Source of the DNA: Thelephora terrestris
Taxonomy: Eukaryota > Basidiomycota > Agaricomycetes > Thelephorales > Thelephoraceae
Direction: 5' to 3'
DNA length: 64,000 bases
Assembly: GCA_015956445.1 (NCBI GenBank)
Contig: WIUZ02000006.1
Coordinates: 1,612,001 to 1,676,000, forward strand
Shown: positions 592-40,157 of the stretch, in pieces
How positions within the stretch are numbered: the first letter of the stretch is position 1
Layout of the letters: every line of letters starts with the position of its first letter
Program-made: the position numbers and the translations under genes
The notes under the pieces: generated by a model
The model's database searches: none
What the model saw: only the letters and a program-made list of their open reading frames with translations
What the model was told of the DNA's origin: nothing

Positions 592-1261
592 CACTGGGGG
601 CAGGGGTTGGTTTACTGAGTCAGTAAACTGTGAGTAAATCACAAGGAAATGGAAAAAGAACCTAGCGAGATACTTGCCTGGCAAGCGCAAAGCAAATACA
701 CAATTTACTGAGCCAATTTACCTGCAATTTACTGGGTTCAGTATGTGCTCAGTATGTTTACAGTTTACTGAGTCATGTGACCACAGTTTTCCCATTAGGC
801 AAACCTTGGAAAAATTCACAATTTACTGAATAAATTTACCTGCAATTTACTGAGCCACTTGCCCAATCAGTATGTTTTTAATTTGCTGAGTGGTTTGATC
901 ACGGTTTACTGGACCCAGTAAACTGGAAAAAAACCAAACTGGTTTACTGACAACGTCCCTGATTGGTCAATTCTAAAAATAACCGAAAATTTACCTGGAC
1001 GTGTCATTGTCAGTAAACTGCAAGTTTTCTTTCAGTAAATTGGAAATACACGTCAGGTAAACTGGGAAAACACGTAATGATTTGATCGTGGTTTACTGGA
1101 CTCAGTAAATCAGAAAAAAACCTAACCAGTTTACCAACAATGTACCTGATTGGCTAATTTGAAAAAAACTCGAAAATTTACCAGGACGTGTCTTTATCAG
1201 TAAACTGCAAGTTTTCTTTCAGTAAATCGCAAGTACACGTAAAGTAAACCAGAAAACACGT
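592..1261 (+). repeat. left arm of the 670-bp perfect inverted repeat
   Basis: Pairs with 1288-1957 without a gap: the coordinates of paired bases always sum to 2549. Confidence 0.97.
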
Positions 1262-1262
1262 G
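894..1262 (+). repeat. two ~185-bp tandem repeats inside the left palindrome arm
   Basis: 894-1080 and 1081-1262 are diverged direct repeats. Each starts TTTGATC..GGTTTACTGGAC, contains GATTGG(T/C)..AATT and AAATTTACC..GGACGTGTC, and ends in GAAAACACG. The mirror copies lie in the right arm. The palindrome was therefore made after an internal tandem duplication of a diverged unit. Confidence 0.85.
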
Positions 1263-1287
1263 TAAACTGTAAGTAAATCCAAAGTTT

Positions 1288-1957
1288 ACGTGTTTTCTGG
1301 TTTACTTTACGTGTACTTGCGATTTACTGAAAGAAAACTTGCAGTTTACTGATAAAGACACGTCCTGGTAAATTTTCGAGTTTTTTTCAAATTAGCCAAT
1401 CAGGTACATTGTTGGTAAACTGGTTAGGTTTTTTTCTGATTTACTGAGTCCAGTAAACCACGATCAAATCATTACGTGTTTTCCCAGTTTACCTGACGTG
1501 TATTTCCAATTTACTGAAAGAAAACTTGCAGTTTACTGACAATGACACGTCCAGGTAAATTTTCGGTTATTTTTAGAATTGACCAATCAGGGACGTTGTC
1601 AGTAAACCAGTTTGGTTTTTTTCCAGTTTACTGGGTCCAGTAAACCGTGATCAAACCACTCAGCAAATTAAAAACATACTGATTGGGCAAGTGGCTCAGT
1701 AAATTGCAGGTAAATTTATTCAGTAAATTGTGAATTTTTCCAAGGTTTGCCTAATGGGAAAACTGTGGTCACATGACTCAGTAAACTGTAAACATACTGA
1801 GCACATACTGAACCCAGTAAATTGCAGGTAAATTGGCTCAGTAAATTGTGTATTTGCTTTGCGCTTGCCAGGCAAGTATCTCGCTAGGTTCTTTTTCCAT
1901 TTCCTTGTGATTTACTCACAGTTTACTGACTCAGTAAACCAACCCCTGCCCCCAGTG
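1288..1957 (-). repeat. right arm of the 670-bp perfect inverted repeat
   Basis: Reverse complement of 592-1261 with no mismatch seen. Confidence 0.97.
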
Positions 1958-1960
1958 TAT

Positions 1961-9415: not shown

Positions 9416-9689
9416 TCCCTCTGGTCTCTCGTGTCCCGCTGGTGTCCCGATTTCTGACTCTGTTGTCCCGACGTATCCCGACGTTTCCCTTTGTCTGTTA
9501 TTGGTAGTTTCGTTCTCTGGCTTTCTCGTCGTCCTCTGCCTCGTTCTCCCGTTCTCTTCCCGACTTTCTCTCTCACCTTTCATTCGCTTCCCGCAGATTC
9601 CCTAGAGGCTCGCGCCTCTGAACCGAGGACCCGACCTTCTAACTGCCATCTCTGCCCTCTCGGACTCCGAAGGCTTTGTGGCTAGTTCA

Positions 9690-11775
9690 CCGGCCAAAGG
9701 AAGTGGGGAGATGTTTTGCGGCCCGTGCGACGGTCGCGCCGTGCCTCTTCCAAGTGTCCCCGACGAGCACAGCCCAAGGCCAATCACTAGTTCGGTCGAA
9801 TTTTCGGGCATCCGGTCGCGCACACCACAGGTCGAATAGAAGGGTAGCTATGTTAATTAAGGGCTGGTGCATAAGATCACCTGCAAAACACGTCGGAAGA
9901 TCTAAAATACGGGGAAGGCCGTCAAAGATACTGGGCTTCCCGATACCCGATTCCCATCGGCGCCTCGCTAACTCAGTCTCGTGTGGGGAGGAAATGATGG
10001 AATCGAGACCTTGCCGATATTTAGCGGGATCAGGTTCCGGAAGCTCGTTGACGTCAACATCCGGATGCTTCGACGTTGGGTGGTCCTCAAAGCCATCAGG
10101 TCGAAAGAGCGCCGGGTAATAATGAGATCCCTGAGCCTTGTTCCGCCCAGCGAATCCACAGAGCAGGCGGCAACCTTTCCGGCCATGGTGGCCAACGGAT
10201 CCGCTGACATCGGCCATCGCAACCGCGTCCGCCAAGACCAAGAGCAAGAAGATGAAGGCGACCACGCGCAGGTGATTGTATGCGTCCCAGATAGGTAGTC
10301 CCTCCCGTTGAAGCGCAGAGACGTGAGCTACACCCGGAAACAGAAATGAGTCCATGTTCTTGGGGTGGTCCGGACCGGGAAGAATACTTCGTATCTTGTA
10401 TCGTTCGTCCGGGCCCAGATCTAGAATAATCCAAATATACATCCAGCAATTTGATTGATTGTTCCGATGAAGTTGCGCGCCATCAATTGACATCATGAGC
10501 ACAGTGTCGTATTTTTTGATGCCCCCAGAAGCGTCCGAAGCGGCGTCAAGATAGGCTTGCCCGGATAAGATGTCGTCATAGATCTCGGGGCCAATACCAG
10601 ATGCCTCACATTCCTCACGAATATCTTGCGTTTTTTCCCAGCGGTAAAACATTTTCTTGGCGGTCTCGGGGTTCTTCCAACGTGCCTGGAGTTGCGGGCC
10701 GACGGGAAAGGTCGTAAAGACTTTGCGGGGGATTTTTTCGTCAGTGGGATCGGGAGTTTCCTCCGGAGTTGGTCGAGCCATGCCGCATTCGGGACAGTAC
10801 CGGAGTTGCTCGAACGGACCAGTGAATCCGACGCAAGATTTAACGCACATGTCGTGCTCCCAGGTGACGATGCCGGAGAGTTGCCGTGCCCTCCGCTCAA
10901 CCCGGTAATAGGATAACATATTGATGCCGGGGTCCCGAGCCTGCGTGATAAGACGCATCTGTTCGTAGCTACTCTGAGTACATCCCAAGAACCAGATAAA
11001 CGCCCGAAGTGATAACATAAGATCGGGGTCGTCCAGAGGGGTGGTTTCGTGTTCCTGGGGATCCAGGAAGTCCGCAAGATCCTCGGGAATAAATTGATCC
11101 GCGAGCCTAGCCGCCTGGACATGTTTGATAAAATCGACGGCAACCTGGATTCGTTCGACACTAGCTGGTGGATAAAGGTGGTCCACTGGCGTACTGCGTC
11201 CAGAACTAGCCGGTGAGTTGTCTTGATCAAAGTCCAATGGAGGGGGAGGGGGAGGGGGAGGAGGAGGAGGTGGTGGTGATGGGGGCGGAATAGGTGGTGG
11301 AGAACGAGACAGAGGAGGTGACAAGGGCTGGGAACGAGGAGGAGAATACATGCCCTGGTCCGACAGAGGCGTATGCATGCGCGACGGAGGTCCACCGGGA
11401 GGCTAGACATACATTCCACAGGATCGATGCGATCAATATGATGAATAGATAAGATTACGGGTATATACGTACAGAACCCGATCTCGCTACGCGCTTAGCT
11501 CCCTCTGGAGGATCTTCGCCTTCTTCCGCAGGCCGTTTTCCCAAGAGAGGGGAAGTCCCAGATCCGGAATTATCTCGGGAGAGATCATTATCACGACGGA
11601 TGGCGTCGATACGACTCTGGCGTTCGGCAAGCCGGGTAGCTTTTTTCCCTCCTGGGTTGTGCGTATACCAGGTGGATCTCGCTACAACCTGCGGAGTCCC
11701 GAAACGTCTAACGCACATATTGCAGCGACACACCTCGGACATCGTTGCGGGATCCGAGGGATGGTCTTGGTACAA
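9690..11775 (-). CDS. Tnp2-family (CACTA/EnSpm) transposase, copy A, cut by the Gypsy insertion
   Basis: Two exons on the minus strand. Exon 1 is 11473-11775 (101 codons) with a CRCNMC zinc-like start and a WYTHNPGGKK motif. A 70-bp intron (donor gtacgt, acceptor tctag, 11403-11472) is followed by exon 2 from 11402; the phase fits. Exon 2 has a long poly-Pro run, then CVGFTGPFEQLRYCPECG and the Tnp2 core: MMSIDGAQLHRNN, YIWIILDLGPDERYKI, PKNMDSFLFPG, ADAVAMADVSGSVGHHGRKG, GDLMHQP. These match the complete copy at 15215-18484 throughout. The frame is open until the LTR edge at 9689, where the gene stops at residue-equivalent TSFGR; the missing C-terminus should lie beyond the left window edge. 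I could not find the terminal repeat of this element. Confidence 0.85.
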
Positions 11776-15214: not shown

Positions 15215-18200
15215 TCACGCGTCTACATCATCCAAAGTATCCGACGTACCCGTGTCTACTACGCCTAATGCAAATTTTTCTACCAAAAAAAAATCTTGAG
15301 TCCCTTCGCCCTGCTCACCGAATGGTATCATAGCTACGACCGAAATAATAGTATTTACACGAACTACAACTAACTCGGACTGTCCATTGTAAGTACATAC
15401 ATTAAGCGCGTTGTTTGAATAAGTTCTGATATTTTCCTCGATTGGGGAATATAGCGAACAGAGGGCGAGGGTTTCGTTGACTCCCTCGGAAGCGATCTGG
15501 AAGTAGAACTGGATTTCCGCTAGGCGAAGGGCTCCTTGATATGAGATCTAAATCAATGTCAGCCGTAAAATTAAGGTTAGACGTAAGAATCAGATCGCGT
15601 ACCTTAACGTTGCGATCAGTCCGAGCGCCGTTCGTGGTACGGATAGCCTCCTTCCAAAAGGAACGGGCGATTTGTCCGTTAGGAATCTGGAGTCTTGCCC
15701 ATCGGTAGATAGTCTCTCTTGAGGTAGACCTTAAATTAGGGAAAAAAACATCGATTGAATTTTTTTCGGCCGCAGAAAGAGGATAGGGCCGAGTGTCTTT
15801 GGGTCCAAGTAAAATATATCCCGAGCCGAGATCAAGAGAACCCCTCGGATCCTTCTTCACCCGCTCGAGAGACGGCCACATAGAGACCAGGGCGTTGACC
15901 TCCGCGACCTTTTTGACCTGTTCCGCAAGATTGGCGAAGGGATTTGATGGCTGTTTGATCAGGGAGCCAAATATCCCAATCATCCGTTCCATAGTCCACT
16001 GAGCCGAAAGCGAAGGTGGTCCGAGGCGAAGGGCCTCGGGAGCGAGGTGTACAAGCGAGTGGACGCACTGCCGGACGAAGTGGAGACGTTCCGTCTTCCG
16101 TCGGTAATAGAGAAGCTCGAACTCGATCACCCACTCGAGAAGGAGTTGGTGGGCGAGTTTGAGCTGTTCCGCCGTAAACTCACGTTGGTACATTATCCGG
16201 ATGCCGACCACTAGTTTACAGTAGTGCTTGTAGTATTGTTCCGGGAGTATTTTGTAGAAAAGTCCCGGTCCTAGGCCGTAGAAATACAAGAGCAGCTCCC
16301 AGGCTTTGTATCCGCTTGAGAGTTTTTTGGCGGGATTCCGAGGAGTTCGGTCAAAAGAACGAGGGAAATAGGTGGAGGACGATGCAACGACCTTGCCGTG
16401 AGCCTTCCAGACGTTCCCCTTCAGAACCGCCCAGTCCCAGACCTCACAAGAATCATCGCCCTTCCTACAGTTCCCCTTCTCACACCACAACTCGAGCATT
16501 AGGCCCGTCAGATTGATCACGGGCTGGTGCATAAGATCTCCAGGGAAGCAGGTCGGCAGAGGTAGAATCCGAGGGAGGCCGCCAAAGATGCTTTTCTTCC
16601 TGATTCCGGTTTCAAGTCGGTTAGATTTGTAGTCGGCTTCTGTCGAGGAAGCCATCACTTTCCGGAGATCTCTTCTATAATTTGATGGGTTCGCGTCGGG
16701 TAATTTGTTGATGTCGATATCTGCGTGATCTGAGGCCGGGTTATCGCAATCCAGGGGACGTAGTAAGGCAGGGTAATAATGAGGACCACCAGGCTTGTTT
16801 CGTCCGGCGAGCCCACAAAACACCCGGCAGCCCTTTTTTCCGTGGTGACCAACAGCGCCGCTCACATCAGCAGCGGCAACGGCATCCATGAGCACGAGAA
16901 GAACGTAGATAAAAGACTCGAAAGCTGTATTATTGAGGCCGTCCCAGATGTGTAACCCTTCCTTTTGAAGGGCAGAGACGTGTGCCAGACCCGGGAAGAG
17001 GAAAGAGTCAAGGTGCTTGGGATTTTTCGGGCCGGGGATGACACCGCCCGGAAGAATGTGCCGTATCTTGTAACGTTGGTCGGGAGCAAGGTCGAGGATG
17101 ACCCAGATGTAGATCCAGCAATCAGATTTTTTATTGCGAAATAATTGCGCGCCGTCCAGAGAAAGTGTGACGACCATATCGTGCTCGTTGATGGTACCTT
17201 CCTGCGCGGCCTTGAGATAATCCTCGCCGCAGAATATGTCGTCATAGTCAAATTCCTCACCACGGCCAAGCTTCTCCAATAGATCCTGAGTTTTTTTTCG
17301 CCGATAGGACATTTTTTCGGCGGTCTCCGGATTTTTCCAGCAAGCCTGGAGCTGTGGGCCGAGGGGTATCGTCGTGCAGGATTTCAGAGGTACCTTATCT
17401 TTTCCGCCAGACGTCTGGAGTTTCTCTTGGTCGTATCGCGGCTTGCCACATCGAGGACAGTTTTCCAGAGGAGCGAATGGACCCGTGAATGCGGCACAAG
17501 AGTCGACACACATGTCGTGTTTCCAAGTAAGGACCCCAGATAGATTAGATACGAGTCGCTTAACCCGGTCGTAAGATAGCATCCCTGAATCGGGATAACG
17601 ATCTAGTATGTCTTCACGGGCCTCGGTGTAAGCCTTTTGCGATGTGAGGTGGTCCAGGGTCGACATAAAGAACTTGATAGATAACAGGAGATCTTTGTCG
17701 TCAGAAGGGGCGAACTTAGAGTCTTCAGGATTCCGGAGGGACTGGAGCTCAGCCGGAGTGAACTGAGCCTCTAGGGTTGCTTCCCGTACCATCTGGAGGA
17801 ACGCGAAGTTTTCTTTCATGCTATCCAGCGTGATGTGAGAGTCATCTTCATCATCACTGGGAGGAGTTTCGCCGGAATCGCCATCCTGAGGGGGATCGGG
17901 ACCTGTGTCCAAGCCAGAAGGAGGAGGATCAAGGGCTCTGTCATGGGATTCTTCGAGTGGAGGGGAGGGTGGAGGAGGATCTTGGCCAGTATCTTCAATG
18001 GGGCGGCTTGAGATCAGAGGAGGAGGGAGACTCTCGGGCTCAGGCTCAGGCAGAGGAAAAACTGGGCCCGTTTCTGGGGACGTTTCACGCTCAGGAATAA
18101 CTTCTATAAGAGTCTGAGTACCCTACATGAATTGTTTTATGAGTATCGTACTTTTGAGGCGCATATATGCAGTGTGGGCGTGCTTACCGAGCCCGACCCC

Positions 18201-36970: not shown

Positions 36971-39107
36971 CTACTTCCTTCCGCTTTTCTTCTTCTTGGG
37001 ATCTGGACGAACCTCTATTGACCCACCCGCAAGCTCTGAGCCTTCGCCTGCAATCTTTGACTGGGCCTCCATATAAAACATAATATCCTTCACTTGATCC
37101 TGCAATTCTTCGATCCGAGCCTGAGATTCTCGCTTCTGTTGTTCAGCTCCCTCTAGCTTCCCTTTCAAGTTCTGCAGGTTCTGCATCAGCCCTTCACCGC
37201 ACGCCCTCTCTTCCTTGAGCTCCTTTTCCAGCCTCCTCGACAACGCCGTCAGCCTTTCCGCCTTCTTCTCCGCCTTTTCCTTGTCCCTCTCCAGCTCGGC
37301 GATTCTTGCCTCCTCTTCCGCCTTCCTCTTCTTCGCCTCCTCCGCCCCTCTCTTCTTTGCCTCTTCCGCTTCGGTCGAAAACCGAGTAACAAGACCTTTA
37401 AGCTCGTTCACGGCCGCGGCAAGCTCATTAACGCGGTCCTCGTAAAACGATCGCTGAGAATCCAGTTGCGACGTCAACAAGTAGGAGTACTCGATCCCAA
37501 TCGCCTCGATCTTCTCTGCGGTGAGAGTATCCGAAGGTCCAGGACCCATCCCGCTCCCTTCTCTCCCTCCGGCCGCAGAGGAAGTTGCAGCTGAAGGCAA
37601 CTCCACCAATTTCCCGTCCGCTTTGTTCTGAATCAAACGGTGGACGTAACCGTCTCCGGCGTAATCCCACACCCGCTGCGTCTCCAACTCGAGCGCATAC
37701 AGATGGGTCGTACTCTGGTAATGAGCCTGCGCATGTGCTCTACCGTACCTCCCACACCCAATGTTCCCGCAAATGAGACAGATCCACAGGTTGCTGTTCG
37801 AACCGCAATCGGCACATCTGCTAAGCTGCGGAGAAGAAGAAGGGTTGGGGTTCGAGAAGGGTACAGCCAGGGATGATGGACGAGCGGTGTTGGATGATGT
37901 CGGGTGGGATGAGAGGAGGGTCTGAGAATATCTGCAGACTGGACATCGGCTGTCCCCCCACTTGCTTAGGCACATGCAATGGAATGTGTGCGAACAGGGA
38001 ACGGTTACCAGTCCGGTGACGGCTGAGTCCATTCGCTCCAAGCACACTGGGCAAGTAGGGAGTTCGTAAACCATTGATTCATAAGATGTCGCAAATCGAG
38101 CGATGGAGGTAGAAGCAGCGTCCTCGGTGTCGATCGTTATGGACAGAACGCGGACGACATGGCATATCTCAGGCTAGCCACACGCATGAGAGGGTTCGCA
38201 TATGGTGGAACGTCAGACGATGGCTTACCTCTAGAGAGTTGAACGCCTTTCCGTTGTACGCCTCAACGAATTCCCCGGGGCTTGTCGAGTCGCGAAATCG
38301 GATGAAGACCATTGACCGATTAGGCACTGAATCTCTGAAGACTCATAGTGCTTATGAGCACCGTAGTCATACCAGAAGAAAAGGCACAGTAGCTCACCTT
38401 ATCATCCTAAGATGTACGATACTATCTGCAGCTGGTTCGACGAACGACAAAAAATCAGCAGGCGTCATCCACGACGGAACGGCAAGCACCGCCAAAGTGT
38501 TGTCGTCAGCGCCGAGCTCCGTATTGTTCTCATCGTTCGTGAGGCTTTCATCTTGCGTCCCGACGTTCGCCCTGGGAGGCGGATCCCGGAAAATGTGAAC
38601 GATGCCCTCGGGGAGATTGGTGGATCCATGAGGCTGATCAGGACAGTCCTCGACCTTTGTTTTGTCAGGTTTCGGCACAAACTTGCCAACGATTGGACCG
38701 CCTAGGGAAAGTGTCAGCCCAAGAAAACCAGGTCTACATATTCCCTCACTTCGATTGCGTGTATCTTTCTCCTTTCCGTTTCCACTGGCGCTCATTGTGG
38801 GTGCGTTATCCATTGTGACCCTCTCAATACCGCCCTTCGGCTTCTTGAGTGGCTTCTCGATAGATGAAGTCGTGGGAGGGGAACTCTTCAAATCCAGCCA
38901 ATCAATACGAATGGGACCGTATCTATAATCCCTTCTCTTCGAACCAAGAATGGCGTTATTCCTCGAGGTCTCCCTCGGAGTGTGCGCAGGTAGGTTTTCG
39001 AAAACCGATTTCGGTATGAAAGTGTCGGCCGCCCAAGTTGTGGCCTTGGCGGGAGACTTGGTGGCAGGTTTGACTGTGACTCGGATTCTGATGTGGTAGC
39101 CTCGCAT
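36971..39107 (-). CDS. BRAP2/ETP1-type RING and UBP zinc-finger protein
   Basis: Start at MRGYHIRIRVTVKP (39107) because the BRAP2 family begins close before a Tyr-Gly-Pro-Ile-Arg-Ile block, here YRYGPIRIDWLD. Then come the BRAP2 RRM-like domain (AVLAVPSWMTPADFLSFV ... RSMVFIRFRD ... YNGKAFNSLE ... ICHVVRV) split by introns, a RING-H2 (CPVCLERMDS ... CSHTFHCMC ... CPVCR), a UBP-type zinc finger (CADCGSNSNLWICLICGNIG ... HYQSTTHLYALEL ... DGYVHRL) and a long coiled coil (37000-37450). A basic tail KKKKSGRK ends it. The human relative is a ubiquitin ligase and MAPK scaffold modulator; yeast Etp1 acts in ethanol tolerance and transporter turnover. Looks complete, about 600 aa. Confidence 0.92.
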
Positions 39108-39391
39108 GATACGTCTGGAGTTCAAGACATTCTTGAGTACGAGAATGTAAACGAGAACGAGGAAGCAAGGTACAAGTGATCGCCAAGCGCCAGGCGCCGA
39201 AATCCGTGACAAGTCGATCTTATCTTCTGCCACCACATACTTTTCACCAAAACCGTTTATTTCTTTGGTGGTTAAGTGACGTCTACCTAGAGGCAAAGCC
39301 TCTTGATACGTAGTTTCATAGAAAGGAGAGGATACAGAAGGGAAGGACAAAGTATAACAAAAAAAAGGCATACACCGCAAAAAAAAAAAAA

Positions 39392-40157
39392 TCAAACCCT
39401 TTTGGCCTTTTTTACCTCTTTTACCTCTTTTGCAGGGTTCGCTCGACATCTTTTGGAAAGATGTACTGACACATGATCAGTTCGTAGCCGCAGCTTACAG
39501 TACGGGCAACTCGTCTTAAAATCCAAGTGGTTCATCAACACATGTCGATTCAAAGATCGACCACCCATCGTGACTCGGCACCCATGCCACCCACACCTCT
39601 GCGGAGTGCCGTCATCTAGCAACCCGTGCTTCTTCATGAGGTGCCGTCGCCATAAGGCCTTGTTCTTAGGCAAGATTTCTGTGCAGTCGTGCGTCGGGTA
39701 CGCGCATTTGATCATTACCTTCGGAAGTGGCGGGATTTCTTTTACGGTCATCCAGGGATATAACTTGAGCGGAGGATTCTGGGGCTTTGGCAGATGGCCT
39801 TGTCTAGTCGGTCCCTGGTCTGGAGGTTTGTCCTTTACTTCGATTTCTGGCGCCGAAAAGCGCCTCGAAATCTTCACATTCGCTGACGCGGGATCGAATG
39901 TCTGGCTACCAGCGATCGAAACTCGCCTATGGAAGGGTGTGGATAGAGCCGGCTGGGTCTGCTGATTTTCCAGCGCTGGAGTGCTGTAACGTGACGACCA
40001 GGCATCGGAATAGTCTGTCGGAGGACTAGGTGGCCTGAATTCGTAGTCAGCACACGTTGACGAGAGAGGCCATTGGTTCACCTTACCGCTGGACACTTGG
40101 AGCAATGCTTGCCTCATCCCCACTCTCGCAGTCGGACGAGTCTAAATTATCACCCAT
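39392..40157 (-). CDS. small C2H2 zinc-finger protein
   Basis: Two exons with an intron of about 51 bp near 40036-40086. The start MGDNLDSSDCESGDEAS at about 40157 gives an acidic N-terminus, then PPSPPTDYSDAW and a Pro-rich linker. Three zinc-finger-like units follow: CAYPTHDC...HLMKKH, CGWHGCRVTMGGRSLNRHVL, and CPYCKLRLRTDHVSVH...C. The protein ends in a basic run KEVKEVKKAKRV, about 238 aa. The layout suggests a DNA-binding regulator, but the specific family is not recognised. It lies 285 bp upstream of the BRAP2 start on the same strand, downstream of which is an A-rich stretch (39359-39390). Confidence 0.75.

Follow-up and report, generated by a model that had tools for sequence, protein, structure and literature searches.

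Structure of the Palindromic Element and Its Insertion Site

The analyzed window, a 64,000-nt stretch of the Thelephora terrestris genome, carries at positions 592–1957 an element of 1366 bp (no strand assigned) that forms one palindrome. The left arm (592–1261, plus strand) and the right arm (1288–1957, minus strand), 670 bp each, pair with zero mismatches. The symmetry is broken only at eight positions of 1262–1273 and at their mirrors, all of them within the asymmetric 26-nt loop (1262–1287, plus strand). An exact inverted repeat of 670 bp is far beyond chance, and the whole 1366-bp element folded as single-stranded DNA gives one hairpin. The termini are CACTG and CAGTG, and TAT adjoins both sides (589–591 and 1958–1960, plus strand); among the next 40 flanking pairs outside the element, 10 match, which is the chance level. 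This symmetry check confirmed the first-pass annotation, which had described a palindrome with 670-base arms, a 26-base loop, CACTG/CAGTG ends and flanking TAT.

Each arm contains a direct duplication with a spacing of 187 bp, the units of which are 82% identical. Units 1 and 2 of the left arm occupy 891–1069 and 1078–1256 (plus strand); the mirrors of unit 2 (1293–1471) and unit 1 (1480–1658) in the right arm (minus strand) follow from the palindrome symmetry. The motif WTTACTG/CAGTAAW occurs 16 times per arm, compared with a mean of 0.28 and a maximum of 3 in 2000 mononucleotide shuffles. An ORF search detected no frame longer than 63 codons anywhere in the 1366 bp, and nothing was found by Rfam and promoter scans. 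The outer 100 bp of the left arm (592–691, plus strand) and of the right arm (1858–1957, minus strand) are matched here; in other copies they lag in matching or escape it.

The host of the insertion is a retroelement. Its ORFs downstream gave matches to DUF4100, aspartyl protease and reverse transcriptase, as well as to the RNase H and integrase zinc-binding families. In all 13 other places holding both flanks (paralogues of the host retroelement), the flanks abut without the insert. At six of these 13 empty sites the overlap of the two flank matches is exactly 3 bases, and at another six it is 2 bases, the left match having ended one base early; at the remaining site both flank matches were trimmed. 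The proposed target duplication of TAT was thereby verified. The three nearest copies of the host retroelement show at most about one difference per 200 bases on either flank, hence the insertion in the window is recent.

Two observations were made in passing. At G000:C37:196-1178, the left flank of the host retroelement is interrupted by ~780 bp with 4 bases repeated on either side, perhaps by another transposon. Further along the window (36971–39449, minus strand), two ORFs match BRAP2, RING and the UBP zinc finger and probably represent one BRAP2-like gene with an intron.

A Family of Palindromic Copies

The search for other copies proposed in the first-pass annotation was conducted in the 40.6-Mb assembly of 60 contigs and revealed that the window element is one of dozens. 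The Plavaka, KDZ and tnp2 content of this assembly suggests a basidiomycete-like fungus. A one-arm query gave at least 92 matches (the best 40 of 90 first-look candidates were scored). The 19-base end was found in 96 + 93 occurrences at up to two mismatches, a count that takes in a second palindromic family as well, and in none for the reversed control. The duplicated triplet varies among the copies; the annotation had tied its reading to the existence of other TAT-flanked copies, and two were found. The asymmetric loop also recurs in other copies.

The analyzed set of 42 near-full copies comprised 33 single copies, two from locus L045 and seven of 20 further loci. Six of the first 40 loci (L022, L030, L046, L052, L053 and L055) were dropped as nested, deleted or interrupted. 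The loop region served to orient the 42 copies; the orientation score for L067 was not decisive, and this copy, being too diverged, was excluded from the tree and the position counts. Dropping the second members of near-identical pairs left 35 representatives. The position counts were taken from the full-element alignment, as the half-arm alignments were cut near the loop.

Exact 3-bp target duplications flank 39 of the 42 near-full copies and include 19 different triplets, the commonest being TCA (8/39). Insertion with a 3-bp target duplication is thus shown for the window element as for most copies. L047 (C14:685726) and L048 (C13:754711) hold one element with flanks alike across 1 kb on both sides, i.e., one insertion counted twice through a recent segmental duplication or an uncollapsed haplotype; with this locus counted once, the figure becomes 38/41. 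Unmatched triplets were found in L024, L029 and L059, all three of which rank among the eight highest in arm divergence, a pattern expected for hybrids arising from inter-copy exchange. Among the unused loci, triplets match in L063–L066 and in the first element of L074, and do not match in L072 and in the first element of L061.

Locus L022 (G000:C3:157876-160609) contains a palindromic element seemingly lying inside the right arm of another element of the same family, with arm positions 548–550 present on either side of the insert. The inserts that split arms elsewhere were tried as the autonomous partner and rejected: since their 10 tested ORFs (L061–L065, L074 and L079) have no Pfam match, we read them as nested insertions.

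The Arms of a Copy Resemble Each Other

The arms of one copy differ by a median of 0.97%, compared with 5.3% between copies (42 copies). In 22 of the 42, no arm from a different copy comes as near as the partner arm. The window copy has seven private variants, each present on both arms, and none confined to one arm; over the 35 groups (positions 1–640), 54 private variants were shared by both arms and 56 were confined to one. In a tree built from positions 101–640, a copy's own arms form a clade in 25/41 copies, and in a tree built from positions 1–100 only in 10/41, near-identical sister insertions being judged as a group in both counts. Twenty-nine of the 35 representatives are homogenized and six are not matched. 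As judged by the grouping of their arms with different lineages, some copies are shown to be hybrids; one arm of L027, for example, groups with L026 and the other with L042.

The direct repeats provided an internal control. Divergence between the two units of one arm is 17.3% within a copy (41 copies) and 16.9% across copies, and the median difference between a unit and its inverted partner is 0. It is therefore the inverted layout that gets matched, and mere proximity does not suffice.

Transposition and Matching Are Separate Events

Eleven sister pairs, hand-picked from nearest neighbors, were used to set transposition apart from matching. The flanks of L038 and L039 are dissimilar and their triplets differ; the two copies have nine arm mismatches in common (10 by the half-arm count). 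Arm mismatches are also shared, again without flank similarity, by L027/L029 (28), L042/L044 (10) and L054/L057 (3). Because copies with different flanks have the same arm mismatches, jumping does not reset the arms; as read from these alignments, existing mismatches are shown to be carried by the copies to new sites.

Paired changes, i.e., those introduced on both arms after the sisters separated, numbered nine in L025/L031, eight each in L073/L075 and L050/L056, seven in L023/L068, five each in L036/L051, L028/L032 and L042/L044, and one in L054/L057. None was found in L038/L039, L027/L029 and L040/L041. Arm differences present in one copy only amounted to 16 in L028/L032, eight in L073/L075, six in both L023/L068 and L050/L056, two in both L025/L031 and L027/L029, one in both L042/L044 and L040/L041, and zero in L036/L051, L054/L057 and L038/L039. 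All 48 paired changes in the 11 pairs lie at arm position 111 or beyond, a placement that would have a chance of 3e-5 had they followed the between-copy differences. The arm differences common to both sisters lie at positions 8–96 in six listed pairs (23/23); in L027/L029 and L038/L039, two of the pairs without paired changes, they are spread along the arm. On the evidence of the sister pairs, the middle of the arms (~100–640) is shown to have been made alike repeatedly and apart from transposition, with new changes appearing on both arms.

Matching Fails at the Tips and beside the Loop

Among the 29 homogenized copies, the ratio of within-copy to between-copy divergence is 0.77 at positions 1–25, then 0.42, 0.24, 0.21 and finally 0.13 at 101–150; past position 150 it stays mostly at 0.03–0.10. 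The outliers of 0.29 (401–450) and 0.19 (601–620) fall where few sites vary. Near the loop the ratio climbs again, to 0.39 at 641–655 and 1.51 at 656–670; the 30 bp beside the loop thus also lag (20 of 870 sites are mismatched). Over the terminal ~20 bp, the two arms disagree as often as independent ends would, with nine mismatches seen and 8.0 expected at position 9, and 19 seen and 18.1 expected at position 12. The G/A variant of position 12, present in 27 of 82 arms (41 copies), occurs at one end of a copy independently of the other, which variants of the interior do not. By these position counts the outermost ~20 bp is shown not to be made alike across the family. The alignments thus present a matched body, whereas the tips and a short segment adjoining the loop are unmatched.

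The positions of changes in the sister pairs, together with the independence of the tips, therefore point to an arm-to-arm conversion that is still going on and does not extend to the tips. Matching that runs purely from the loop outward was considered and dropped: the 30 bp by the loop lag, and the copy L086 of the second family, described below, shows the reverse.

A Second Family and Its Long Relatives

A second palindromic family, with the end CACTGGGGGCAAGGGGTGG, has 45 exact ends in the assembly and is 63.5% alike to the first over a 233-column alignment at the ends. All six fetched copies (in G000: L081, C12:1625194; L082, C23:2486972; L083, C60:1043923; L084, C16:506156; L085, C1:1330506; L086, C4:63151) are palindromes of 865–876 bp with 3-bp duplications. 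In four of them the own arms differ at 0, 0, 0 and 1 of ~430 positions, and the median divergence between copies is 7.7%. The other two, L084 and L086, are not matched. The 33 arm differences of L084 all lie within positions 23–255, and the 32 of L086 all within 170–408, with positions 1–169 matching. L086 shows that matching need not touch the loop. In the sequences compared, the second family shows the same arm matching, with sharp-edged unmatched blocks in two copies.

Long terminal pairs of the second family were found on C3 (10.9 kb), C10 (5.0 kb) and C59 (3.1 kb). Because the triplets match in all three, each pair represents a single insertion. The two ends show no difference over the outer 100 bp on C59 and 27 on C10, where inserts interrupt. 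The C3 element (G000:C3:985719-996621, with ends in L087, L097, L098 and L088; triplets GGA) has ends that are inverted copies throughout the 582 bp read and that follow the second family for the first 276 bp. Its ends mismatch at five positions in the outer 100 bp and at two in the next 482, so that a matched body with less matched tips also occurs with arms ~9.7 kb or more apart. It could represent either an autonomous relative or a palindrome that has received nested insertions.

Classification and a Candidate Transposase Partner

The first-pass annotation had called the element a CACTA derivative, to which its ends and 3-bp duplication conform. Elements of the En/Spm type carry, in their subterminal regions, a short motif that recurs in both orientations. 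The palindromic copies combine CAC..GTG termini (CACTG..CAGTG), a 3-bp target duplication (39/42 near-full copies, and the empty sites) and a subterminal bidirectional short motif (WTTACTG/CAGTAAW), as in CACTA/EnSpm. They also consist almost wholly of long, internally repetitive inverted repeats without coding capacity, as do foldback elements or palindromic MITEs. PIF/Harbinger elements use a TWA/TA-type target triplet, and the 19 different triplets found here do not agree with that superfamily. Neither does the duplication of 3 bp agree with the 7 bp of Galileo and the P superfamily. For fungal EnSpm elements, CAC..GTG ends and 3-bp duplications are described (PMC12730594), and for Plavaka the same source gives TGT..ACA or CATCA..TGATG. 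Plavaka, with at least 132 gene matches in the genome (123 of 261 candidates scored for PF18759), was rejected both as class and as partner, since these published ends differ from CACTG..CAGTG.

For the transposase partner only a candidate, tnp2 (PF02992), emerged from the comparison of ends. A non-palindromic end on C10 is 72–74% alike over 143 bp; three relatives of it were found at 83%. In three of the four places with an end of this type, PF02992 is matched on the inner side at a distance of up to 7.5 kb (a limit chosen post hoc), compared with a match near one of 53 palindromic elements, either side counted. On C16 and C23 the gene is in the same orientation, ~7.4–7.5 kb from the end, and on C10 in the opposite one; identity between the C10 and C16 fragments is only 22% over 141 aa. 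The other (left) end of the C10 candidate was not found in the 621 bases read. The 10.9-kb element on C3 has no PF02992, PF18759 or PF18758 (tnp2, Plavaka, KDZ) match among those listed (for PF18759, among 123 scored candidates of 261).

The window itself has two tnp2 (PF02992) genes on the minus strand, at 9687–11378 (below the family cut-off) and 15402–17912. Around neither gene did the search find CACTA/CACTG termini that combine a matching triplet with similar ends, and these genes were rejected as the partner. A very abundant repeat of ~820 bp, L093:57-875 (C10:279356-280174), gave 629 first-look candidates, the best 40 of which were scored and proved about 79–85% alike; it is apparently another non-autonomous family.

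Discussion

Rapid loss is the expected fate of long perfect palindromes. We conclude, with a probability of roughly 85%, that the window element is a non-autonomous, full-length palindromic (foldback) copy of CACTA/EnSpm type, whose arms appear from the sequence comparisons to be kept alike by arm-to-arm conversion. Conversion was read here from one assembly. The first-pass annotation had offered youth, hairpin-mediated gene conversion or an assembly artefact as the source of the symmetry. Youth stands for the insertion in the window and fails as the cause of the pattern, because transposition carries arm mismatches unchanged. Conversion between arms has held up as the general cause in the analyzed copies; the hairpin is one of the routes by which it may proceed.

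Pairing of the two arms would lead to arm-to-arm conversion. In one possible route, a hairpin at the replication fork would permit a template switch: the nascent strand would snap back past the loop, use ~30 bp as a primer, copy the other arm and return to its template before the tip, leaving both edges to lag. In the other, a break would be repaired through inverted pairing within a copy or between sister copies, and the homology lost at the edges would again leave both edges lagging. Conversion tracts that stop short of where homology ends may thus account for the failure of matching near the tips. Lagging edges would be expected of either route, and break repair would better fit the C3 element. 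Its arms, ~9.7 kb apart yet alike, speak against the need for a tight hairpin, although this is one case. The hybrids and the blocks of arm mismatch suggest that exchange with other copies puts arm differences in and arm pairing takes them out; the blocks could have been put in by such exchange. For its movement the element would rely on a CACTA-type transposase supplied by a gene at another place in the genome, perhaps tnp2 (PF02992).

A stricter proposal is that of a self-correcting palindrome, in which every passage of a fork, or every break, could let one arm be rewritten from the other; a template switch in the hairpin would use the ~30 bp by the loop as the primer and run outward, leaving the last ~20–100 bp unmatched. 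We regard it as tentative and rather doubtful, its odds having been lowered by the finding that arms ~9.7 kb apart are matched in the C3 relative as well. If it were true, the tips would evolve as independent ends and the body would stay a perfect mirror, and dozens of long palindromes would be kept beyond the lifetime of one family.

Four other explanations were weighed against arm-to-arm conversion. Ectopic exchange with other copies in the genome, instead of pairing of a copy's own arms, might match the arms. The existence of hybrids such as L027 speaks for it, as does the presence of the unmatched-triplet copies L024, L029 and L059 among the eight most arm-diverged ones. Such exchange would, however, homogenize copies and not the two arms of one copy, and the seven of seven both-arm private variants of the window copy have no donor among the compared part of the family, which makes it an unlikely cause. 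Still less probable is that each transposition rebuilds the palindrome from one arm, in the manner of LTRs, mismatches then counting the time since insertion. Near-zero arm divergence in many copies and the recent insertion in the window would suit this idea, but the same arm mismatches recur in copies without flank similarity (28 in L027/L029), and L042/L044 and seven other pairs changed on both arms after their separation.

The palindrome might instead be maintained by selection acting through compensatory change, for instance if a perfect hairpin served as transposase substrate or gave rise to small RNA, and both families do keep the palindrome though only 63.5% alike over the aligned ends. 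We give this explanation marginally less credit than rebuilding at transposition. Diverged and hybrid copies persist, the hybrid L027/L029 at two sites; zero mismatches over 430–670 bp of non-coding DNA would seem too exact for compensation; and the tips, where the transposase should act, are the least matched part. Fold-back artefacts do exist in long-read data, and a read folded back on itself during assembly would produce a palindrome. This source is very unlikely, and the least probable of all, in view of the matched triplets in 39/42 copies, the 13/13 empty sites and an asymmetric loop that recurs among the copies.

One practical consequence is that such elements must not be dated by arm identity. 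Together with the replicated copies, the direct-repeat control and the visible limit at the tips make the relative rate, tract length and edge effect of conversion measurable from sequence.

Comparison with Known Systems

Parts of this behavior are already described. In Galileo, of the P superfamily in Drosophila, the ends of one copy are 98–100% identical and the between-copy means in five subfamilies are 92–97% (PMC3573991). The passages cited also describe hybrids with ends from different subfamilies and unmatched flanking sequences, as well as 7-bp duplications, and discuss recombination and conversion as the cause of the end dynamics (PMC3573991). The palindromic copies resemble Galileo, as portrayed there, in the long, internally repetitive inverted ends, the within-copy identity and the hybrids with unmatched flanks. 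They differ from it in that the whole element is palindromic, in the 3-bp duplication and CACTG ends, and in the tip-exempt matching resolved here. With the fungal CACTA/EnSpm (CMC) elements of the cited account they share the ends and the 3-bp duplication, but here there is no coding capacity.

The Tm1 Mutator/foldback elements of root-knot nematodes have repeated end motifs and 9-bp duplications, and many are described as lacking coding capacity; the ends of one element average 93.15% identity and are identical in 5/61 (PMC3169594). The likeness to our copies lies in the foldback form with repeated end motifs; by these figures, matching in Tm1 is much weaker or absent. In yeast, template switching homogenizes short inverted repeats, sometimes with inversion of the loop (PMC8604942). 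There, too, the arms are identical, one having been copied from the other, but the arms reported are 7–16 bp long, compared with 430–670 bp here (PMC8604942).

Within-copy identity of ends and hybrids (Galileo) and template-switch homogenization of short arms (yeast) are thus known from the cited accounts. Our search of open-access articles found no palindromic fungal CACTA elements with matched arms. As far as searched, whole-palindrome CACTA-like elements, the direct-repeat control, the separation of transposition from matching, and the exempt tips are new. Arm-to-arm conversion takes place in the palindromes of the human Y chromosome. In the palindromes of willow sex chromosomes, arm-to-arm conversion is likewise described, the arms evolving in concert (PMC7023750). 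Those are palindromes of a sex chromosome, whereas the dozens of mobile copies found here offer replicated outcomes of arm-to-arm conversion inside one genome.
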